From: Acidobacteriaceae bacterium
GTDB lineage: Bacteria > Acidobacteriota > Terriglobia > Terriglobales > Acidobacteriaceae
Assembly: GCA_030040425.1 (NCBI GenBank)
Contig: JASHTS010000041.1
Span: forward strand, 1 to 38,645
Reading direction: 5' to 3'
DNA length: 38,645 nt
Both the position numbers and the translations under genes were made by a program. Of the stretch, positions 10,309 through 23,173 are shown one piece after another. The number at the start of each line of letters is the position of its first letter. Within the stretch, counting starts at the first letter, position 1. Below the pieces are notes generated by a model, which worked only from the letters and a program-made list of their open reading frames with translations, did not search any database and was not told where the DNA came from.

Positions 10309-10905
10309 GTGCTACAGCCATCGGATTCGCCCACGCACCTGCTCCTTCGCTGGAGGAGCGGGGACCAGGAAGCACTGCAAGCACTCATCCCCCTCGTCTA
10401 TAAGGAGCTGCGTCTGGCTGCGCGGCGCTGTTTGCGCTCGGAACGCAGCGACCACACGTTGCAAAGCACGGAGTTGGTGCATGAGGCATATCTTCGGCTC
10501 GCCGCCGATCGCCCATTGAGCACCGAAAACAAGGCGCATTTTGTCGCGGTTGCGGCCAAATTGATGCGACAGATCCTCGTGGACTATGCGCGCCGTCGGT
10601 CCGCGGCGAAACGGGGACCGCAGTACAAAGTAGAACTGTCTGAAAATTTCGATCTCCCCCTACCGGCGAATGTCGATCTTGTGGAATTGGATCATGCGTT
10701 GACTCGGCTCTCCCGACGCGACGCTCAGCAGGAAAGGATCGTGGAGCTGCGCTTCTTTGGCGGCCTCACGGTGGAGGAAACTGCTGAGGCGCTCGAGGTT
10801 TCTCCCGCAACGGTCAAACGGGACTGGAGCATGGCCAAAGCATGGCTCACGCGCGAAGTGGGGAGAAGCTCCATTGGAAAAGACAGGGCAGTGGGAGCGA
10901 GTTAA
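10309..10905 (+). CDS. ECF sigma factor (ECF/Sig-70_X6 type)
   Basis: A 198-residue RNA polymerase sigma factor. Residues ~8-95 are region 2 (HLLLRWRSGDQEALQALIPLVYKELRLAARR, STELVHEAYLRLA, FVAVAAKLMRQILVDYARRR). Residues ~135-185 are region 4 with its helix-turn-helix (QERIVELRFFGGLTVEETAEALEVSPATVKRDWSMAKAWLTREV). This is the ECF subtype common in Acidobacteriota and Planctomycetota, normally paired with a Ser/Thr kinase. GTG at 10309 is preceded by AGGGACGGGA. The kinase gene begins inside its last 32 bases, so the two are co-translated and the kinase probably controls the sigma factor's output. No anti-sigma gene is next to it. Confidence 0.9.
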   Translation: MLQPSDSPTHLLLRWRSGDQEALQALIPLVYKELRLAARRCLRSERSDHTLQSTELVHEAYLRLAADRPLSTENKAHFVAVAAKLMRQILVDYARRRSAAKRGPQYKVELSENFDLPLPANVDLVELDHALTRLSRRDAQQERIVELRFFGGLTVEETAEALEVSPATVKRDWSMAKAWLTREVGRSSIGKDRAVGAS

Positions 10906-13399
10906 AGAAATATTCGATGCGGCCCTTCAGCAGGAGCCGGCTCAGCGGGAAGAATTCCTCAAGAACGCCTGCGGTCCGGATGATTCGCTGCGCGAAGAGG
11001 TTCGATCGCTGCTATCGGCCTACGTGGATTCGGGAGGCCTCTCGCAGCCCTTCGCCCCCGTTGATTTGCCTCCCGACGCGCGCGCCGGGGACCTGGTCGG
11101 ACCCTACCGGCTCATCACCAAGATCGGCGAAGGCGGCATGGGACAGGTCTGGCTCGCCGAACAGACCGAGCCTCTGCGCCGGCAGGTAGCCCTCAAGCTG
11201 ATCCGCGCTGGAGTGTATGACAGCGCCATGCTGGCGCGCTTCCTGGCGGAGCGGCAATCGCTGGCGGTGATGGAGCATCCGGCCATCGCCAAAGTGTTCG
11301 ACGCGGGTGCCACGGAGGACGGTCAACCCTACCTGGTGATGGAGTATGTGCACGGCGAACCCATCACTCGCTATTGCGACGAGCACAACCTTAGCCTGAA
11401 GCAGCGGCTCGAGCTCTTCATTCAGGCGTGCGAGGGCGTGCAGCACGCGCATCAGAAGGCCATCATTCATCGCGACCTGAAGCCGGCCAACATTCTGGTG
11501 GCTGAAGTCGACGGCAAGCCCACGCCGCGCATCATCGATTTCGGACTGGCGCGCGCGATCGAACTGCAGCCGGGCGTACGGGATACAGAAGCTCTCGCGG
11601 GCACGCCGGGCTATGTGAGCCCGGAACAGGCTGCCGGCGGCGACATCGACACCCGCACCGATGTGTATTCCCTGGGCGTGGTCCTTTACGAGCTGCTCGC
11701 GGGACAGACTCCCTTCGACGCCGCAGAATGGCGGAATCTGCCGTTGGGCGAAGCGCTCGAGCGCGCGCAGAAGCAGAATACTCCGCGGCCGAGCGCAAAG
11801 GCAGCGGAGAGATCGGAGGCCACGCACGAAGCCGAAGTGCACCGCCAGTGCAGGCAGGGCAGGCTGGCGGCTCAGCTGTCCGGCGATCTGGACCTGATCG
11901 CGCTTAAGGCGCTCGAAAAAGACCGGCAAAGGCGCTACGGAACGCCCAACGAGCTCGCCGCGGACATTCGCCGCTTCCTTCGCCATGAACCCGTGGAAGC
12001 GCATCCATCGAGCCTGGCCTATCAGCTCCGGAAATACGCGCGCCGGCATCGCGTCGGGTTGGCCATGGCCGCGCTGCTGGTGCTGCTGTTCGCCGGCTTT
12101 GCTGCTTTGCAGGCTATGCAACTGCGCCGCATTAAGCGCGAGCGTGACCGCGCCAACCGCATTACCGACTTCATGACCGGCATGTTCAAGGTCTCCAACC
12201 CGAGCGAGGCTCACGGCAATCAGGTAACCGCGCGCGAAATTCTCGACAAAGCCTCGAAGGACATTGATACCGGGCTGTCGCGGGATCCTGAGCTGCAGGC
12301 GCAAATGATGGCGGTGATGGGCTCGGTCTATGAGAACCTGGGCATTTACGATCGCGCCGAGGCGCTTTTCAGCCAGGCGCACGAGATCGACCGGGGCCTC
12401 GAGGGCGCGGAAGGCGATGACACGCTGAGAGAGCAGACCCTTCTGGCCTGGATGAAATACCGCCGCGGCAAATACCACGATGCTGAAGTCATTCTGCGAC
12501 AGGTGCTGGCTATTCGACTGCGCAGATTCGGGTCCAATAATGCCGACACCATGACCGTGATGGACTACCTAGGTGCGACGCTCAACTCGGAAGGACGCTC
12601 CGCCGAAGCGGAGACCATGCTGCGCCAGGCAGTGGCCTACCGCCAGCGCACCCTGGGCAACAATAATCCGGACACGCTTGTTGTGATCAACAATCTGGCG
12701 CTTGCCCTGCAGGGGCAGGGCCGCTGGGCAGAGGCGGAATCACTGGACCGCGAACTGGTGAGCCTCTGGCGGCAGATTGAAGGCCCCGACTCCGAGCGCG
12801 GACTATTTTCCTCTGACAATCTGGCGATCATTCTTTACCGGGAGAAGCGCCTGGCCGATGCCGAATTGCTTGAACGGCAGACGCTCAAAGACAAGTTGAG
12901 GGTTCTGGGACCGGACCATCCGGAGACGGTTCGTTCGATGAATACTCTGGCCGCCATACTCGCCGATGAGGGCAAGTTAAGCGATGCCAAACCCCTGGCC
13001 GAGCAGGTGCTGGCCTATCGTACCCGTGTGCTCGGACCTGACCATCCGCTCACTTTCTCCGCAATGAGCAATCTCGGGGAGGTCCTCACGCAGCTGAAAG
13101 ATTATGAGGCTGCCGAACGCATTCTGAAGGAGGCGCAGGCGGGCGAGCTGCGTGCGCTGGGACCGAACTCGCCGACGGTGGGCCTCACTATGTACAACCT
13201 GGCCTGCCTGGAGCTCAAGCGCGGCCGCCGCACGGAAGCGCTCGCGACCTTGCGCGATGCGGCGGATCACGGATTGCAGCATTGGGTGGCGGCGCAAATG
13301 GCAACTGACCCCGACTTGGCGGCGCTGCACGGCGACCCGCGGTTTACCGCGCTGGTTCAATACGCCGAGCAGCATACGGCCAGCTCTATGGCCAAGTAG
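10874..13399 (+). CDS. Transmembrane Ser/Thr protein kinase with TPR sensor region
   Basis: An 841-residue Hanks-type kinase. Using TTG 10874 as residue 1, the kinase domain spans ~79-360: glycine loop GEGGMGQVW, Lys108 in VALKLI, HRDLKPAN with Asp201, DFG at 222-224, and GTPGYVSPEQ in the activation segment. A membrane helix follows at ~394-415 (VGLAMAALLVLLFAGFAALQAM). The rest (~460-820) is TPR_12-like repeats (RAEALFSQAHEIDRGLEG, NPDTLVVINNLALALQGQGRWAEAESLDRELV, VLGPDHPLTFSAMSNLGEVL) and lies outside the cytoplasm. TTG is chosen because GGGGAGA lies upstream; the longer open frame upstream is out of phase with the sigma gene and looks non-coding. The 32-base overlap with the ECF sigma gene implies coupling. 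Confidence 0.9.
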   Translation: MEKTGQWERVKEIFDAALQQEPAQREEFLKNACGPDDSLREEVRSLLSAYVDSGGLSQPFAPVDLPPDARAGDLVGPYRLITKIGEGGMGQVWLAEQTEPLRRQVALKLIRAGVYDSAMLARFLAERQSLAVMEHPAIAKVFDAGATEDGQPYLVMEYVHGEPITRYCDEHNLSLKQRLELFIQACEGVQHAHQKAIIHRDLKPANILVAEVDGKPTPRIIDFGLARAIELQPGVRDTEALAGTPGYVSPEQAAGGDIDTRTDVYSLGVVLYELLAGQTPFDAAEWRNLPLGEALERAQKQNTPRPSAKAAERSEATHEAEVHRQCRQGRLAAQLSGDLDLIALKALEKDRQRRYGTPNELAADIRRFLRHEPVEAHPSSLAYQLRKYARRHRVGLAMAALLVLLFAGFAALQAMQLRRIKRERDRANRITDFMTGMFKVSNPSEAHGNQVTAREILDKASKDIDTGLSRDPELQAQMMAVMGSVYENLGIYDRAEALFSQAHEIDRGLEGAEGDDTLREQTLLAWMKYRRGKYHDAEVILRQVLAIRLRRFGSNNADTMTVMDYLGATLNSEGRSAEAETMLRQAVAYRQRTLGNNNPDTLVVINNLALALQGQGRWAEAESLDRELVSLWRQIEGPDSERGLFSSDNLAIILYREKRLADAELLERQTLKDKLRVLGPDHPETVRSMNTLAAILADEGKLSDAKPLAEQVLAYRTRVLGPDHPLTFSAMSNLGEVLTQLKDYEAAERILKEAQAGELRALGPNSPTVGLTMYNLACLELKRGRRTEALATLRDAADHGLQHWVAAQMATDPDLAALHGDPRFTALVQYAEQHTASSMAK

Positions 13400-14093: not shown

Positions 14094-14252
14094 ATGAGTT
14101 CCATCGGGCCTCTCTTGCCCGGGCTGTTATCTTTCGCGGCCCCGGCGGAACTGACCCTTGATTCGGCGCGGGCTGCATCATTGGCCCTGCGCGAAGCTGC
14201 AGGCTCAATGCGGCCTGCGGGCGCGGCAAACCGGCAGGAGGGTGCAGCATGA
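14094..14252 (+). CDS. 52-residue ORF, translationally coupled to ECF sigma factor
   Basis: ATG 14094 follows a strong ribosome site (GGAGGAG, 3-4 bases upstream). The ORF encodes 52 residues: a hydrophobic start (MSSIGPLLPGLLSFAAPAEL), an Ala/Arg-rich helix (DSARAASLALREAAGSMR), and a polar end. Its stop overlaps the sigma factor's start as ATGA (14249-14252), and the sigma gene's own AGGAGGG site lies inside it. This arrangement argues for real translation. It may be a leader peptide tuning sigma synthesis or a small partner protein; the sequence shows no known domain. Confidence 0.6.
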   Translation: MSSIGPLLPGLLSFAAPAELTLDSARAASLALREAAGSMRPAGAANRQEGAA

Positions 14253-14905
14253 GCACATCTCTGTTGGCCATCGAATCCAAACCGCCTCAGTGCGAATTCA
14301 AAGGGTGCGAGCCCGGCGAGTTTCAAGCAGGCGCTTACGACATGGGGTTGCCAGCCTCCGAGGACAAGCTGAAGAGGTTTACCCAGGCAGCCGAGAAACA
14401 CCGCGCGCAACTGCTGTGGCTGGCGCAGCGGATCACGCCGCAGCGCGAGGAGGCCGAGGACATTGTGCAGGAGGCGCTGCTCAAGGCCTTCCGCAACCTG
14501 GCGCAGTTTCGCGGCGACGCGCAGATGACCAGCTGGCTGCGCGCAATCGTGCAGAACACGGCGCGCGACTGGCTTCGCAACCAGAAGGGGCGCGTACACC
14601 TGCCGCTCGAACAGACACGTCCCAGCGAGGGCTCAACCATGCTCTTCGATTTTCCGCATCCCGCGGAGAGCCCCGAAGATCGTTGCGAGCGCAAGGAACT
14701 GGAGTGGATGCTGCGCAGGGAAATCAAGAAGCTGAACTCCGTTTCTCGTCGCGCTCTGCAATTGTGCGTGCTTGAGGAGTTTTCTCATAGCGCCGCTGCA
14801 CATCGGCTCAACATCGGCGTGATCACCGTCAAGTCGCGAGTCTTCAGCGGGAAGCGGCGATTGAAGCGGGCGATGTGCATGCGCCTTGGCATGCAGGACG
14901 CCTGA
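14249..14905 (+). CDS. ECF (RpoE-like) RNA polymerase sigma factor
   Basis: A 218-residue sigma factor. Region 2 is at ~45-112: 'HRAQLLWLAQRITPQREEAEDIVQEALLKAFRNLAQFRGDAQMTSWLRAIVQNTARDWLR'. Region 4 is at ~150-205: 'LEWMLRREIKKLNSVSRRALQLCVLEEFSHSAAAHRLNIGVITVKSRVFSGKRRLKRAM'. About 40 N-terminal residues precede region 2 and are not conserved text. AGGAGGG lies ahead of ATG 14249, within the coupled 52-residue ORF. No anti-sigma factor follows; the next gene is convergent and ends 34 bases away. Targets are unknown, though the GH16 locus next door is a plausible candidate. Confidence 0.88.
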   Translation: MSTSLLAIESKPPQCEFKGCEPGEFQAGAYDMGLPASEDKLKRFTQAAEKHRAQLLWLAQRITPQREEAEDIVQEALLKAFRNLAQFRGDAQMTSWLRAIVQNTARDWLRNQKGRVHLPLEQTRPSEGSTMLFDFPHPAESPEDRCERKELEWMLRREIKKLNSVSRRALQLCVLEEFSHSAAAHRLNIGVITVKSRVFSGKRRLKRAMCMRLGMQDA

Positions 14906-14939: not shown

Positions 14940-16745
14940 TTACTCGGCGGCGCGCACCTCGAATGGCACGGTGAGCTGCGAGTGGTCGCCGCTGATGGTG
15001 GTGGCGGTGATGGTCATCTTGTACCGGCCGGGCGGCGCAATCACTCTGCCTTTGTCTGAGAAGAAGTCCGTGGAGACGGTCAGGCTGTCGTCCTGCGAGA
15101 GCGTGTCGGAGAGATCGACGACCGAGGATGCAAGAGAACAGGCCGCCGCGGCCGGCTCAATGGAGCAGCCCAGATGCACGCGGCCCGCATATTCGCGCGC
15201 ACGCAGGGTAATCACGCTCGCCACAGACGCGCCGGCCTTCACATCGACCGGCTGCCACTGGACGGCGGGCGCGGGCACTGGCGGAATCCTGTACACGCGC
15301 ACATAATCGACGAGCATCTCCGCCGGGTTGGGCGTGGTCGCGTCGGGATTTCCCGGCCAGTCGCCGCCGACCGCGAGGTTCATCACCAGGAAGAAGGGGT
15401 GGTCGAAGACCCACTGGCCGCCTTCGGGCAGATCGCTCGCATTCTGGACAAAGAATATGTTGGCCGGATCGTCCACGTAGAACTGCATCATGCCCGGCGA
15501 CCAGATTATGCCGTATGTATGGAAATTGCCGTCGTCGACGCGCGCGCCGTTGGGGAACTGGAAGTCGCGCCACGGGCCATTGCCGCCGTAGTAGCGAGGA
15601 CCATGCAGCGTTGCGCGAATCCGTGTGGGGCCGATGCCGTTGGTGCGCTGCGTGAGCGCGACGTTTTCGACGATCGTGAAGGAACCCGACGCGGGCCAGC
15701 CCGTGGTGAGAAAGTTCGAGCCCAGCATCCAGAATGAGGGCCACAACCCGGTGCCCACCGGCAGCTTCATGCGCGCTTCAATGCGCCCGTACTCAAAGTC
15801 CTTGAGGCCTCGTGTGGTGAGGCGGGCTGACGTCCAATCGCCGTCGGCGTTGCGCTCGGCGCGCAGAACCAGATGGCCGGAGCCGTCTAAAAAGGCGTTG
15901 GGTCGGCGTGGATCGCATCCATGAGGATTTGCGCCCACAGGGGCGCAGTACGTCTCCACTTCGTGGTCGCCCCATCCCTGGTTGCCGAATTCGTTATGGC
16001 TTCCGGTGTCATAAGTCCAGTGGGTAGGGTCCGGCGCTTGCCCGGCAGCGCCGTTGAATTCGTCACTCCAAACGGGATCACCCCACCGGAAGGATTGTGC
16101 GACGGGTTGGACCGCATGTTCCCTGTTCCGGCCAAAGAAGTAACCTGCGAGGAAGATGACAGGGACCACGAACAGAACCAGCGCGGACTCAAGGAGCAGG
16201 CGCCGATGTCCGGCCAAAAACCCGGCTCGCGCCTTCGGTTGCGCGCCCGCGGAATTTGCGCTTTGCTCCGTCTCGGCCTCTTCATCCGCTTCTGAGGCGT
16301 CGATCGTGGCTTCATCCGGCAGGGCCACGTGCGCGCCGGGCGCATTCGGACGGACAAATTGCGGAACGTAATGGCCGAGCGGCAGCACGATTTGCAGCGC
16401 ATGACTCCCTCCGTCCGTCGAATAGATCTTCCAAAGCTTCTTGCGCAGCGAGCGCGCGGTGACGCGAACAATGGGGTCAATGTGGGAGTCGAAGCTCGAC
16501 TCCTTGCGCCCGAGCGCTTCGACAGCGATTGTGTATTCTCGGATGTCGTCGGTCTGGCCATCGAAGTATTTGTTGCAAATGAAGGAAAGGAAACGAACCA
16601 GGCTCTGGGAGCGGCTGATCTCGGGATCGTTGAGGATGCGTTCCAATTCTTCGCGTTCTTCACGGAACGCGACGCTGGCGCCGTGCGGGCGCGGCCCCGA
16701 CTCGGCAGGTTTCTCCAGCTTCTCGATCGATGCGTCCAGTGGCAT
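14940..16745 (-). CDS. Transmembrane GH16-like protein with cytoplasmic winged-helix-like domain and missing catalytic nucleophile
   Basis: A 601-residue protein in four parts. Residues ~28-131 form the cytosolic domain often found at the N-terminus of TolB-like and cyclase proteins (RFLSFICNKYFDGQTDDIRE, FDSHIDPIVRVTARSLRKKLWKIY, IVLPLGHYVPQF). Its helix plus beta-hairpin text resembles an OmpR/CadC winged helix. A membrane helix is at ~183-205. A GH16 (laminarinase-type) domain is at ~226-488 (WSDEFNG, GRIEARMKLPVGTGLWPSFWMLG, LVDYVRVYRI). A C-terminal Ig-like domain is at ~495-600. The family active site E-x-D-x-x-E reads S355-F-T357-I-V-E360, so nucleophile and assisting Asp are gone; both neighbouring GH16 proteins keep them. 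I infer a sugar-binding pseudoenzyme, possibly a CadC-like sensor. It lies 190 bases after the second GH16 gene. Confidence 0.88.
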   Translation of the reverse strand: MPLDASIEKLEKPAESGPRPHGASVAFREEREELERILNDPEISRSQSLVRFLSFICNKYFDGQTDDIREYTIAVEALGRKESSFDSHIDPIVRVTARSLRKKLWKIYSTDGGSHALQIVLPLGHYVPQFVRPNAPGAHVALPDEATIDASEADEEAETEQSANSAGAQPKARAGFLAGHRRLLLESALVLFVVPVIFLAGYFFGRNREHAVQPVAQSFRWGDPVWSDEFNGAAGQAPDPTHWTYDTGSHNEFGNQGWGDHEVETYCAPVGANPHGCDPRRPNAFLDGSGHLVLRAERNADGDWTSARLTTRGLKDFEYGRIEARMKLPVGTGLWPSFWMLGSNFLTTGWPASGSFTIVENVALTQRTNGIGPTRIRATLHGPRYYGGNGPWRDFQFPNGARVDDGNFHTYGIIWSPGMMQFYVDDPANIFFVQNASDLPEGGQWVFDHPFFLVMNLAVGGDWPGNPDATTPNPAEMLVDYVRVYRIPPVPAPAVQWQPVDVKAGASVASVITLRAREYAGRVHLGCSIEPAAAACSLASSVVDLSDTLSQDDSLTVSTDFFSDKGRVIAPPGRYKMTITATTISGDHSQLTVPFEVRAAE

Positions 16746-16935: not shown

Positions 16936-17880
<945 letters not shown>

Positions 17881-17900: not shown

Positions 17901-19031
17901 TCAGTTGGTGTAGATACGCACATAATCGACGAGCATTTGCGATGGAAACGGGGTGCTCGAGTCAGGAGACCCGGGCCAGTCGCCTCCGATGGCCAGATTG
18001 AGAAGAAGGAAGCTCGGCCCGGAATCGAACGGCCAAACCGAACCCGAAAATCCGCTGATGCTCGAAGGCGTGTACGTTGCGTACGGCTGGGATGGGTCAT
18101 CGACGTAATAGGCTACGCTGCCCTTGCTCCAGATCATGCCGTAGGTGTGCCAGGTCGCGGCAGTGACGCCGGCGGGAAAATTGAATTGCGTGCCGAGATT
18201 GCTGCCGGTGAATCCGGTGCCGTGAATTGAACCCATATTCCAATCCGGCGAGCCGGCCGCATTCACGCGCTCGAGCACGTCCATCTCACCGCAGGCCGGC
18301 CAGTTCGCAGTCGCAATGCTATTCCCCAGCAGCCAGTTGGCAGGCCAAAAGCCCTGCGCCTCCGGCACCTGAGCGCGAAATTCGACGCGGCCGTACTGAA
18401 AGCTGAACAGGCCTTCGCTCTTGAGCCGGGCCGAGGTGTAGACGCCCGGGGAAGGCTCCTCAGCCACGATGTGCAGATAGCCGTCTGTCCCAACGTAGAC
18501 ATTGGGGTTGGCGCTGCTGCATGGCGAAACGGAGGAGTTCCAGCCGCAATAATCCTCAAGCTCATCATTGCCCCAGCCGCCGGCGCCTGTGTCGTAGGTC
18601 CAGGTGGCGGGATTGGGCTGGGCGTTGGCGCCGGTCGAGTTCGAGAACTCGTCGCTCCACACCAGGGTTCCTGACGGAATGTTGGCCGCGAAGGTCTGGC
18701 TGGTGACGGGGCTGTTCGTGTCGCCTGGCGCCGCAGCCATGGCGTTGAGAGTGAGATTCGAGTCCACCAGGAAGGGTGCTTCGTAGATCGGTGAGGATGT
18801 GGTAGGCGTGGAACCGTCCGTCGTGAAAAAGATGGTGGCGCCCGCAGTCGTAGCGCTCAGGCTTACGATCACGGCGCCACCCTGGGCCGCGCTTGTTGCG
18901 ACCGTGGGCGCGGCGGTCTGCGTTGTCGCGCCGCCGCCGGTCATTGAGCCGCCGCCGCTGCCGCAGCCGGCCAGCAGAATAGCGCTGACGGCCAGCACGC
19001 AGCGGAGTCGAAACTCAGAAGAAAGGGACAT
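17901..19031 (-). CDS. GH16 beta-glucanase lipoprotein
   Basis: A 376-residue surface-type glucanase. The N-terminus has a lipobox (ILLAGC, Cys23), so it should be lipid-anchored. Residues ~42-115 form a chitobiase/FN3-like C-terminal-type beta domain (TIFFTTDGSTPTTSSPIYEAPF), an unusual N-terminal position that may act as a spacer. The GH16 domain runs from 'LVWSDEFSNSTGANAQPNPATW' (~123) to 'MLVDYVRIYTN'. Its active site reads GEMDVLERV with E249, D251 and E254, all present. GAGGAG lies ~13 bases before ATG 19031. It follows the TonB-dependent receptor by 174 bases and precedes the second GH16 by 20 bases. A lipoprotein endo-glucanase beside a receptor fits surface cutting of polysaccharide before import. 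Confidence 0.92.
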   Translation of the reverse strand: MSLSSEFRLRCVLAVSAILLAGCGSGGGSMTGGGATTQTAAPTVATSAAQGGAVIVSLSATTAGATIFFTTDGSTPTTSSPIYEAPFLVDSNLTLNAMAAAPGDTNSPVTSQTFAANIPSGTLVWSDEFSNSTGANAQPNPATWTYDTGAGGWGNDELEDYCGWNSSVSPCSSANPNVYVGTDGYLHIVAEEPSPGVYTSARLKSEGLFSFQYGRVEFRAQVPEAQGFWPANWLLGNSIATANWPACGEMDVLERVNAAGSPDWNMGSIHGTGFTGSNLGTQFNFPAGVTAATWHTYGMIWSKGSVAYYVDDPSQPYATYTPSSISGFSGSVWPFDSGPSFLLLNLAIGGDWPGSPDSSTPFPSQMLVDYVRIYTN

Positions 19032-19205: not shown

Positions 19206-22200
19206 CTAGAACGTTAGACGCGCACCGAATTGGCCAATGCGCCCGCCGACGCCGCCATAGCTGATGATCTGTCCGAATGTTCCGTCAGCCATGTTCGTGT
19301 CCGGGCCGCCCAGCGCATCGCGGTTGAACACGTTGAAGAACTCCATGCGGAGAGTGAGGTTGTATCGGCCCTCGGGACCGAAGCCGAGAGTCTTGTGCGC
19401 GCCCAGGTCTTCCGTGGCCAGGCCGGGATTGCGCACTTGCGATTGATAGTTGCCGCCGTTGCCGAATTGCGGAGCAGCCCCTCCATATGCGCCAGGATTG
19501 GGATTCTGGAAGCAGGCCGTGTTCAAAAACGGCTGGAAGAGCTTGCGCGTGCCCGTGGTCAGCTTGCAGTTGGAGGCCAGGTTGACGTAGACCGCATTGA
19601 AGCCCTCGTAGTAATTCGTCGAGTGCACGGAGATGGGCGTGCCGGTGTCGTAGTGGAAGTCGCCGTCGAGGCTCCAGCCGCCGATGAAGCCGTTAGCGAG
19701 CGGGCTTACCGCCGAACCGAACTGCTTGCCGCGCCCGAAGGGAAGGTTATAGATGATGTAGCCCTTCACGATATGGGTTTCGTCGAAGTCAGAGATATCC
19801 TTGGCTTCGTCCTTCAGGTCGTACGTATTCTGCAGCGACCCTGTCCACCAGAGTTCCTGGAAGTCGCTGTCGATATCACCGTGAGTGCGCGACCAGTTGT
19901 AGCTGCCCAGCAGCGAAAGGCCGTGCGCTGCTCTTCGCTGCACGCTGAATTGCAGGCTCTTGTAGTCCCCATTACCGAGCGGCGCGCCCACGGAAAGCAT
20001 AGGGCCGTAGCCGGCTTCGGCCTGCGGATACGGCGTCAGGCCCTCCCATCCGGGGCCGGTGCTGCCCCAATACCCGTTATAGGTGGATGGAAATTCTCCG
20101 GTGACCACATAGTTCTGGTAGTTGGCCTCCGTGGGCTGATTGGTCTCAAAGATGCCGCTCTGCAGGTGGTAGCTGTGGCTCTGGATCCAGTTAACGTCGA
20201 GCTTGGTTACGCTGTCGAGCTCCCGCTGCACGCCCACGCTGTATTGCTGCACGTTGCCCGGAGTAAGCGAGCGCGGGTCGACGTGGATCACATCGGCCTG
20301 CGTGTATTGTGGCGTCTTCACCTGGGAGCTGACCGGGCTGTAGCCGTTATCCCAGTCGAATGCAACTCCATTGGTGGCGAAACCCTCCTGGGTTACCGGA
20401 TGGAAGCCGACATCGCCTGCCTGCTGATACGGCACGCCTCCCCAGGTATTCAGATTGAGTGGAGTGAAGAAGACCCCGACGTTTGCGCGGGCCACCATCT
20501 TATTCGTGAGCTTGTAAGCGATGCCGATGTGCGGCGAGTAGTTGAAATAATCCTGGCGCTTTTCAAACGACTGGCTGCCGCTGGTGAGGTACTGGTACTC
20601 GCCATACTCGCCGGTGACAGGATTGAGCGCGTCGGTCACAAAGTTTGACCAGTGGCCGTACTTCTCTTTGTAGGGATTGTTGTAATCCCAGCGCAGGCTT
20701 ACGTTGAGTGTGATCCGCGAGCCGGCGCGGATATCGTCGCTCGCATACCAGGAGAAGGCTTTGCGGCGGCCATATTCGTTGTCGGGGTTGTTGGTCTCCG
20801 CGTTGTACACCTGGCCAAGAAGGAAACTGCCGAAGGCGTTGCCCACCTCGTCATAGGCATTGAAGTCATACCAGTTGGGCGCGGTTTGCGTGGGATCGAA
20901 GATGAGCGGGTAACCACCGGTAAAGGTGTTGTCGTCGGTGGTGTAGTTGAACTGCATGGCGCGAAACTCAATGCCGAATTTCACGTTGTTGCGGCCGTGG
21001 CTCCAGACCGTCTCATCGTTGTAGACGTAGGTGTTGCCGGCATAGTAGTCGTTGTACTGGCTGCCCAGGGGCGAGAAGTTCCAGCCGTTCTGATAATTCG
21101 CGCCGCCGAAGTACATTCCGGAATCGAAATAAATGAGCGGAAAGTTTCCTGCGCCATCGAAGCCCAGCAGCTTGTTGTCCCAGTGGCCGGTTTGGGAGAC
21201 GGCGATGCTCGGATTGCGGAAGCGATTGAACGTAGCGTAGACGGTGTTGAGCAGGTTGGGCGAAATGGTGATGGCGTCGCTCAGGCGCGCGCCGGGCGCG
21301 GTCGTATTGTGCCAGTACGAGTTGGCCATGGGACCGCCATCGGGCGCAGTGGGCGACCACACGCCGCCCTGGTCGGCGTTGATGCGCGGGTAGTCGTCCC
21401 AATAGAAAGAGCCGGCGATGTGCTGCCTGCTGTTCATGTAGTAATCCATCTTGAGGCTCGACTGCGTATTGTGGAACCAGGGATCGGGTTGATAGCCAGG
21501 CCCGGCATCGTTGGCCGTCAGGCTCGACTCCGGTTGGTAGTACTGGTGGTACAGCTGAAGAATCTCCGACGTGACCCTGCTGATGCGGTTGGTGGGAATC
21601 TGGTTGTTGACGAAGACGCAGCCAAAGGCGCCGTTCGTCGCCGTGGCCGGATCGACGATGGCGCCCTTGTAAACCGGATTGCCGCAGCTATCCAGAGCTG
21701 GCGCGCCGCCGTACGTGAGCACGGGCACGGTGGGCGAGAGCATCGGGCTCAGATCGGCGTACGCAGTGACGTTGCCGCTCGAGTCCAGGCCCATCATGGC
21801 GTCCGTGGGCACGGTGCGCGAATTGGGGCCGAGGTTCCACATCGACTGCATGTAGCGCTCGAATGCGCCAAAGTAAAACAGCTTGTTCTTCACGATGGCT
21901 CCGCCAAAGCTGCCGCCCCAGTCGGAGAGCGAGTCGCTGATCTTGAGATATGCGGCCGCATTGGCCGGATCGGTGATCGCCGACAGGTGATTCGAGGCGC
22001 TGATGGCATCGAGCGCGGTCGAGTGCGAAAAGCCGAAGAGCGAGCCGTGAATCCTGTTGGTGCCTGACTTGAGCTCGTAACGGAACACGCCGCCGCCCGT
22101 GCGGCCCGCGTCCGCTGTAATGCCGGCGGTGTCGGTCTCGAACTCCTGTACGGATTCCATCGGAGGTTGCGACTCGCTGATGTAGCCGCCAAGCTGCGAA

Positions 22201-22793
22201 GTTGCCGAGGTGCCGTCGATGAGCACCTCCTTGGTCATGGCCATGCCGCCGTCGATATGCGAGCTGTAATCGGAGCCCTCGGCGCCGGGCACATAGGCGA
22301 AGATGAAGTTGGAGAGGTTACGGCTGCCCTGCACATTGAGCGGCAACTCGGTGACCGCTTCGCCATTCAGGTTGGTGGAGACGGTGGAGTCCTCGGTCTG
22401 CAGGATGGGCGGCGCCGAGGTGACTTCTACGGTTTCGCTGGCCCGGCCGATGCGCAACGCGACGTCGATTTCGGCAATTTGCCCGATCAGCAGCGTAACG
22501 CCGGTGCGGCGCAGGGTCTCAAAGCCGGACTTCGAAAACTCGACGGAATAGCTGCCAACCGCAAGATCGCTGACCCGATAAAACCCGGCGCTATCGGTGG
22601 TCGTCGTGACCATCTGGCCGGTGCCGGCGTTGGTGATCTGAACCTGCGCGCCCGGCAATACGGCGGACGAGGTGTCCGTGACCGTGCCGGTGATGCTTCC
22701 CCGGTCCGACTGCGCAAAGAGCACACTCGCCGTGCTGAGCGCGGCCAACCCAATGATCGCCAGAGCCTTTCCCCAAAGCTTGCCCATCCTCAT
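19206..22793 (-). CDS. Oar/SusC-like TonB-dependent receptor, putative beta-glucan importer
   Basis: A 1195-residue outer-membrane receptor. A signal peptide (LWGKALAIIGLAALSTASVLFAQ) is followed by a carboxypeptidase-regulatory-like domain at ~30-115 (GSITGTVTDTSSAVLPGAQVQITNAGTG, AGFYRVSDLAVGSYSVEFSKSGF). The plug comes next (VSTNLNGEAVTELPLNVQGSRNLSNFIFAYVPG, VLIDGTSATSQLGGYI), then a long barrel ending '...GRIGQFGARLTF' with terminal Phe. It is complete and of normal family length. ATG 22793 has GGAGGAA four bases upstream. It heads a minus-strand cluster with two GH16 enzymes and a GH16-like membrane protein, so I infer import of beta-glucan oligosaccharides. No SusD-type partner is present, as is usual for this receptor type. 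Confidence 0.92.
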   Translation of the reverse strand: MRMGKLWGKALAIIGLAALSTASVLFAQSDRGSITGTVTDTSSAVLPGAQVQITNAGTGQMVTTTTDSAGFYRVSDLAVGSYSVEFSKSGFETLRRTGVTLLIGQIAEIDVALRIGRASETVEVTSAPPILQTEDSTVSTNLNGEAVTELPLNVQGSRNLSNFIFAYVPGAEGSDYSSHIDGGMAMTKEVLIDGTSATSQLGGYISESQPPMESVQEFETDTAGITADAGRTGGGVFRYELKSGTNRIHGSLFGFSHSTALDAISASNHLSAITDPANAAAYLKISDSLSDWGGSFGGAIVKNKLFYFGAFERYMQSMWNLGPNSRTVPTDAMMGLDSSGNVTAYADLSPMLSPTVPVLTYGGAPALDSCGNPVYKGAIVDPATATNGAFGCVFVNNQIPTNRISRVTSEILQLYHQYYQPESSLTANDAGPGYQPDPWFHNTQSSLKMDYYMNSRQHIAGSFYWDDYPRINADQGGVWSPTAPDGGPMANSYWHNTTAPGARLSDAITISPNLLNTVYATFNRFRNPSIAVSQTGHWDNKLLGFDGAGNFPLIYFDSGMYFGGANYQNGWNFSPLGSQYNDYYAGNTYVYNDETVWSHGRNNVKFGIEFRAMQFNYTTDDNTFTGGYPLIFDPTQTAPNWYDFNAYDEVGNAFGSFLLGQVYNAETNNPDNEYGRRKAFSWYASDDIRAGSRITLNVSLRWDYNNPYKEKYGHWSNFVTDALNPVTGEYGEYQYLTSGSQSFEKRQDYFNYSPHIGIAYKLTNKMVARANVGVFFTPLNLNTWGGVPYQQAGDVGFHPVTQEGFATNGVAFDWDNGYSPVSSQVKTPQYTQADVIHVDPRSLTPGNVQQYSVGVQRELDSVTKLDVNWIQSHSYHLQSGIFETNQPTEANYQNYVVTGEFPSTYNGYWGSTGPGWEGLTPYPQAEAGYGPMLSVGAPLGNGDYKSLQFSVQRRAAHGLSLLGSYNWSRTHGDIDSDFQELWWTGSLQNTYDLKDEAKDISDFDETHIVKGYIIYNLPFGRGKQFGSAVSPLANGFIGGWSLDGDFHYDTGTPISVHSTNYYEGFNAVYVNLASNCKLTTGTRKLFQPFLNTACFQNPNPGAYGGAAPQFGNGGNYQSQVRNPGLATEDLGAHKTLGFGPEGRYNLTLRMEFFNVFNRDALGGPDTNMADGTFGQIISYGGVGGRIGQFGARLTF

Positions 22794-23126
22794 GGTTCCT
22801 CCTCAATGCCGCACCTGGTTTGGCGGTGCGGAGCAGATGTTGCGCGTAAACCTTTGCTTCTGAGCCGGAGCCCCCTTTTGCTAGGGCGGGTTTCCGCGCG
22901 GAAGCCGCCACGATGAGCTCCGCCCTTCGGGTCAGCCTGGCCGCAGAACGGCCATGAAAAGGTGCTCTTGAAACCAGAAGCATTGAACGCGCCCGTGAGC
23001 AGAACTGGAAACGTAAGCCGGGGATAAATTAACCTGTGACTCGGAACGAGGGTTTGAGACCCGATTCGGCGAGTGCAGGCGGCGCCAGACTTATGGCCTG
23101 AAAGGGAGCTGTCCGCAAGGCAGTGA

Positions 23127-23140
23127 ATTTACGTGTAAAT
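23127..23140. promoter_or_regulatory. Palindromic operator candidate 1 (ATTTAC-GT-GTAAAT)
   Basis: ATTTACGTGTAAAT has perfect 6-base arms around GT. It lies upstream of the receptor gene, next to the -35 side of the promoter candidate, and is repeated nearly exactly 33 bp further upstream. The size fits a dimeric regulator. Confidence 0.55.
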
Positions 23141-23159: not shown

Positions 23160-23173
23160 ATTTACGTGTAAAA
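23160..23173. promoter_or_regulatory. Palindromic operator candidate 2 (ATTTAC-GT-GTAAAA)
   Basis: This copy differs from the first only in its last base and keeps 5-base perfect arms. Start-to-start distance between the two is 33 bp, close to three helical turns, so dimers on both would face the same side of the DNA. Confidence 0.55.

Follow-up and report, generated by a model that had tools for sequence, protein, structure and literature searches.

Introduction

Insect beta-1,3-glucan recognition proteins are derived from GH16 glycoside hydrolases and recognise beta-1,3-glucan as non-enzymatic, secreted immune proteins. In bacteria, RsgI6 of Clostridium thermocellum is a membrane anti-sigma factor whose GH10 domain has very low activity, keeps its binding and senses polysaccharide (PMC4711584). 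Rv0315 of Mycobacterium tuberculosis is an inactive GH16 protein in which both Glu residues remain; binding residues are missing from it, and it fails to bind laminarin (PMC4606783). Engineered Glu-to-Ser laminarinases were made as inactive proteins, and one of them, ZgLamA E269S, binds laminarin with a Kd of 1.78 uM in a ratio of one laminarin to two proteins (PMC4606783). ToxR/CadC-like regulators combine a cytosolic winged helix, one membrane helix and a periplasmic sensor in a single protein (PMC10269533, PMC5430869).

Acidobacteriota rank with the most common bacteria of soil, and little is known of how they sense polysaccharides. We analysed a gene cluster in a stretch of 38,645 nucleotides from an Acidobacteriaceae bacterium (hereafter the window), in which a preliminary description had noted a membrane-anchored GH16 protein with an altered active site (hereafter the sensor). 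We consider it likely that this protein is a one-component regulator, anchored in the membrane, which controls transcription of genes for beta-1,3-glucan use and has a laminarinase turned lectin as its sensor domain. Neither the preliminary description nor the open-access literature searched named a one-component regulator whose sensor is a GH16 domain. The locus offers a concrete receptor, ligand class, operator and target set, all of them proposed, and would be a natural case of an enzyme that became a receptor through losing a single catalytic residue; its catalytic sisters are encoded in the same cluster.

Results

Architecture of the sensor

The sensor gene and its parts are located in the window as follows:

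14940..16745, minus strand: whole sensor gene, 601 aa, with a cytosolic domain, a membrane helix, a GH16 pseudoenzyme and an Ig-like tail
16353..16664, minus strand: N-terminal cytosolic domain (N-domain), residues 28-131, about 104 aa, winged-helix-like in the AF2 model, with recognition-helix candidate DPIVRVTARSLRKKL
16125..16205, minus strand: membrane helix, residues 181-207, an AF2 helix with a hydrophobic peak in nearly all scanned relatives
15285..16082, minus strand: GH16 laminarinase-like domain without nucleophile, residues 222-487, from Pfam and structure matches
15666..15683, minus strand: former active site S355-F-T-I-V-E360 (E-x-D-x-x-E in enzymes), from the alignment
14952..15269, minus strand: C-terminal beta-sandwich (Ig-like) tail, residues 493-598, from AF2 strands, with invariant Cys527 and Cys536

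The AF2 model of the full-length sensor (pLDDT 85.5, alignment of 57 sequences) comprised a helical N-domain with a terminal beta hairpin, a helix at residues 181-207, a GH16 jelly roll and a C-terminal beta-sandwich. A single membrane helix had been claimed at about residues 183-205, and the one long helix of the model agrees with it. This hydrophobic helix lies between the cytosolic-type domain and the GH16 domain, a ToxR/CadC-like layout in the AF2 model, and the topology of the sensor across the membrane is likewise a prediction. The claimed succession of N-terminal domain, membrane helix and GH16 domain is real, as the modelled helix, a Pfam match to PF00722 (E 7.8e-14) and matches to laminarinase structures attest. 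The closest solved proteins were the laminarinases 3atg (E 9.4e-65) and 2hyk, on which Foldseek placed the GH16 part of the model with target-normalised TM scores of 0.92 and 0.95, respectively. The Foldseek matches also included the nucleophile mutants 4crq (E142S), 6xqf (E144S) and 4bow (E269S).

Relatives and single origin of the fusion

The search covered 60 related genomes first, and then samples of the order (397 genomes) and the phylum (396 genomes). Twenty-two full-length proteins had the architecture of the sensor, the host copy included, and they came from six genera in two families of one acidobacterial order; outside that order none was found in the sample of 396 phylum genomes. 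These fusions scored at least 850 bits, against 456 for the next complete GH16 protein and 524 for a fusion fragment at a contig end. Named records among them were Terracidiphilus gabretensis S55 (now Occallatibacter gabretensis in the NCBI taxonomy) and metagenome-assembled Acidobacteriaceae. Mis-assembly as the source of the GH16 fold or of the fusion was ruled out by its presence in 22 genomes, including that of T. gabretensis S55.

In an IQ-TREE phylogeny of 84 GH16 domains, the fused domains formed one clade (support 100/87). Around it lie secreted-type GH16 proteins whose sites are intact; a GLGPxxIRST-like loop is shared by several of them. The fusion had a single origin. Its GH16 part has been maintained by purifying selection: pairwise dN/dS, taken where dS was unsaturated, was about 0.05-0.16 in the GH16 part, 0.05-0.13 in the N-domain and 0.2-1 in the linker. 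These values are rough, many pairs being close to saturated at synonymous sites.

Loss of the nucleophile and conservation of the binding platform

The sensor reads S355-F-T-I-V-E360 where active GH16 enzymes read E-x-D-x-x-E. The change had been described as a substitution, not a frameshift, and this is confirmed by a frame that is open on both sides and by full-length relatives that are collinear. Frameshift or pseudogene decay was thus ruled out, the folded domains also having dN/dS values far below 1. It had been considered that homologues of the same architecture might have kept the catalytic pair. None does, and the nucleophile is absent from all 22; an isolated mutation in the host genome was rejected on the same count. 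At the nucleophile position, Ser stands in 20 fused domains, Ala in one and Thr in one, whereas Glu stands there in every one of the 65 unfused GH16 domains in the alignment, a distribution that argues against chance or decay.

The description of the site can be narrowed in one respect: the third Glu (acid/base) is still present here and in 20 of the 22 fusions (Gln in the other two). The constant loss is therefore that of the nucleophile. The Asp position is variable (Thr in eight, Asp in seven, Ser in five, and others; n = 22). The fusions in L071 and L007 have none of the three catalytic acids (SVAIVQN and SIGIMQN).

The predicted binding positions W335, W339, W350, R308 and H381 were conserved in 21-22 of the 22 fusions. 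Matched by motif and not by superposition, Trp350 corresponds to ZgLamA Trp264, five residues ahead of the nucleophile, and Trp335/Trp339 correspond to ZgLamA Trp238/Trp242 through W-x3-W. The engineered Glu-to-Ser laminarinases 4bow, 4crq and 6xqf have oligosaccharides bound in their crystals, and Glu-to-Ser, the commonest natural loss in the fusions, is the very change that crystallographers use to obtain laminarinases that bind and do not cut. Judged by its residues, the GH16 domain of the sensor probably still holds glucan and no longer cuts it.

The N-domain is probably a DNA-binding domain

The first 220 residues of the sensor had no match in Pfam, in agreement with NCBIfam, and a profile of the N-domain found no match among PDB sequences. 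Modelled alone (48 sequences), the N-domain gave a pLDDT of 89.7 and a pTM of 0.82, with a core of helix, helix, long helix and hairpin. OmpR/CadC DNA-binding domains have an N-terminal beta-sheet; the model has none. The top four rows of a VIA-align comparison, which covers listed families, were OmpR/PhoB DNA-binding domains (PrrA, Z 6.9; SaeR, Z 6.5-6.8), with scores under the tool's own safe level of 8. Foldseek gave a best E of 0.29 and nothing under E 0.001. One N-domain paralogue matched PF00486 (Trans_reg_C) at E 0.066, and hhalign (-norealign) placed the long helix on the OmpR recognition helix, a weak match confined to that helix (P 0.0065; P 0.2-0.6 for reversed-sequence controls and other helix-turn-helix families).

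The domain had been put forward as cytosolic and winged-helix-like. Its nearest fold is indeed that of OmpR/PhoB, but the Z of 6.9, the Foldseek result, the lack of a Pfam match and the absent N-terminal sheet do not carry a full winged-helix assignment. Given these modest scores, the nearest fold and the weak hhalign match, we label the domain winged-helix-like and probably DNA-binding.

The N-domain was also found in other settings. In many acidobacterial proteins it is followed by a membrane helix and then by a single malectin domain or a pair of them (PF11721; L037, L038, L042, L044-L050, L142, L152 and others); they are possibly a family of glycan-sensing one-component regulators, and we found no publication on them. 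The host genome encodes further proteins with an N-domain and a membrane helix (L031, 1607-3118; L033, 2279-3760; L035, 2522-3865; L036, 1920-3221), whose C-terminal domain had no Pfam match in the three of the four that were scanned. The N-domain is also frequent in Alphaproteobacteria (Devosia, Ancylobacter, Bosea; L143-L199), where it precedes TPR-type regions, a domain name assigned there by reading the sequences.

The sensor travels with glucanase genes and an outer-membrane protein gene

Three genes of the cluster lie beyond the sensor:

16936..17880, minus strand: GH16a, active site intact (EIDIMEN), directly upstream of the sensor gene in one of the two gene orders
17901..19031, minus strand: GH16b with a chitobiase-like domain, active site intact (EMDVLER)
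19206..22793, minus strand: OMP, an outer-membrane beta-barrel with a carboxypeptidase-regulatory-like domain (OMP_b-brl_4), the cluster's first gene and proposed target

Both neighbouring GH16 proteins have all three acids, as the preliminary description had it. In most loci the sensor, OMP and GH16 genes all point the same way, in two orders: OMP-GH16b-GH16a-sensor (the window, L120-L124, L130 and L137) and sensor-OMP (L128, L131-L134 and L138). In T. gabretensis, which has no OMP orthologue, the sensor lies downstream of GH3 and GH16a, and the gene next to divergent copies is GH81 in L126 and L139 and GH3 in L140. Most copies of the sensor thus adjoin GH16, GH81, GH3 or OMP genes. GH81 enzymes are endo-beta-1,3-glucanases, and this neighbourhood points to beta-1,3-glucan as the ligand. 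OMP orthologues occurred in 17 of 80 genus genomes, 15 of them with the sensor; one genome had the sensor alone and two had OMP alone (Fisher test, 3e-13).

On the other side of the sensor, the window contains an ECF sigma gene and, after it, a gene for a Ser/Thr kinase-TPR protein (10309-13399), as well as another ECF sigma gene that converges with the sensor gene (14249-14905). The same ECF sigma and kinase-TPR genes adjoin the sensor in L120, the only other sensor locus with a neighbouring ECF sigma gene.

A palindrome upstream of OMP follows the sensor

The region 5' of OMP contains three conserved elements:

23127..23140, unstranded: palindrome ATTTACGTGTAAAT, proposed operator 1
23160..23173, unstranded: palindrome ATTTACGTGTAAAA with one mismatch, proposed operator 2, 33 bp from operator 1
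23001..23036, minus strand: conserved proximal block of the GTAAATTTATC...TTACGTTTCCA type, between the palindromes and OMP

The two palindromes of the window, 33 bp apart, lie 347-380 bp 5' of the OMP start and had been named as a possible target. Their consensus is ATTTAC-N1-3-GTAAAT, with a half-site spacing of 1-3 bp. At one mismatch or fewer, ATTTACNNGTAAAT occurred only at the OMP promoter in the host assembly (75% complete). Fourteen of the 15 genus genomes with OMP and sensor had enough upstream sequence to score, and the palindrome was present at 0-1 mismatch in all 14, a level never reached by shuffled upstream sequence in 200 tries each. Two copies 31-33 bp apart were present in six of these regions. 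Where OMP and sensor are on separate contigs (G016 and G270), the palindrome stays with OMP. The proximal block was found in nearly all sensor-bearing OMP upstream regions and in neither sensor-less one; it may be a promoter or a further pair of half-sites.

The palindrome was also absent from both sensor-less OMP orthologues (G359 and G017), a control of two genomes. There, the region 5' of OMP contains AAACCGGTTTA-type repeats and a divergently oriented gene of the LacI family (L269, L277), which looks like a regulator exchanged together with its operator: a natural swap, at one target gene, between sensor and LacI. No convincing palindrome was found near the sensor in divergent genera (GH81 and GH3 neighbours) or near unlinked copies, and its absence in those genera means that it is not universal. 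Across the order, 15 of the 22 genomes with the fusion and 63 of the 375 without it contain the exact palindrome, so the motif by itself is not diagnostic; its position 5' of OMP is. The proposal of these sites as a target has thus gained support, in that they are conserved, track the sensor gene and are unique to the promoter in the host genome.

Discussion

Through the sensor, one protein may both sense a sugar outside the cell and switch on the genes for its use. In the mechanism we infer, glucan fragments, the presumed ligand, would enter the periplasm and settle uncut in the intact GH16 cleft. One glucan chain, or a change induced by the ligand, would then bring together two or more receptors or alter the form of a dimer; cross-linking by the ligand is possible given the 1:2 ratio of laminarin to ZgLamA E269S. 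The cytosolic winged-helix-like domains would bind the ATTTAC-N1-3-GTAAAT palindromes 5' of OMP and so switch the OMP gene and the linked GH16 genes, the predicted sign being induction by glucan.

That the sensor is a regulator whose palindromes belong to another transcription factor, so that it acts elsewhere or merely modulates, seems unlikely to us. Divergent genera lack the sites near the sensor, half-site spacing varies, and symmetric sites are typical also of other families such as LacI, which seems to control the same OMP in two genomes; however, the palindrome tracks the sensor across two gene orders and unlinked copies, and a survey of part of the genes saw no other regulator gene common to the loci. 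Less likely still, the GH16 domain would be a membrane-tethered module for glucan binding or scaffolding and the N-domain would act by protein-protein contact, for example with the neighbouring ECF sigma factor, and not on DNA. It is by fold that the N-domain is assigned to its family, and an ECF sigma gene adjoins the sensor in the window and in L120. Yet such a gene occurs at just one other sensor locus, the N-domain is membrane-anchored with malectin sensors or TPR-type domains as well, and the structures nearest to it are DNA-binding domains.

A GH16 domain that has stayed catalytic, through a different nucleophile or in the manner of a transglycosylase, would fit the acid/base Glu of 20/22 copies and the Asp357 of 7/22. 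We regard this as highly improbable, because every copy has Ser, Ala or Thr at the nucleophile position, the acid/base Glu has gone as well in two, and Glu-to-Ser laminarinases were engineered to be inactive (PMC4606783). A one-component regulator with a lectin-like sensor is the reading we prefer. Its most specific form we advance tentatively, as rather less than an even prospect: a laminarinase was naturally converted by Glu-to-Ser into a lectin, a polymeric ligand cross-links the receptors into a DNA-binding dimer, and the sensor is one branch of a larger undescribed N-domain family in which malectin, GH16 and other glycan sensors can replace one another.

Among known systems, the sensor resembles ToxR/CadC-like regulators in uniting a putative cytosolic winged helix, one membrane helix and a periplasmic sensor, but its N-domain has no Trans_reg_C (PF00486) match and no N-terminal sheet in the model, and its sensor domain is a recycled glycoside hydrolase. 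The N-domain-malectin proteins of the same bacteria have the same N-domain and layout and a periplasmic domain of carbohydrate-binding type, malectin (PF11721), in whose place the sensor has GH16. Unlike the sensor, with its membrane helix and putative DNA-binding part, insect beta-1,3-glucan recognition proteins have neither a membrane helix nor a DNA-binding part. Rv0315 likewise has a GH16 laminarinase fold without activity (predicted, for the sensor) and is the opposite case, the sensor having lost the nucleophile and kept the binding platform. RsgI-type anti-sigma factors have an RsgI N-terminal domain and a partner sigma-I gene; the sensor lacks this combination, and scans of Pfam and NCBIfam found no RsgI domain in it. 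RsgI6 is also a membrane protein with a glycoside hydrolase domain as polysaccharide sensor, whereas the sensor is a putative direct DNA-binding regulator, has a GH16 fold, comes from another phylum and has lost the nucleophile in every copy. In kind, the sensor is at home among the transmembrane one-component regulators, and also among sensors that derive from glycoside hydrolases, such as RsgI6.
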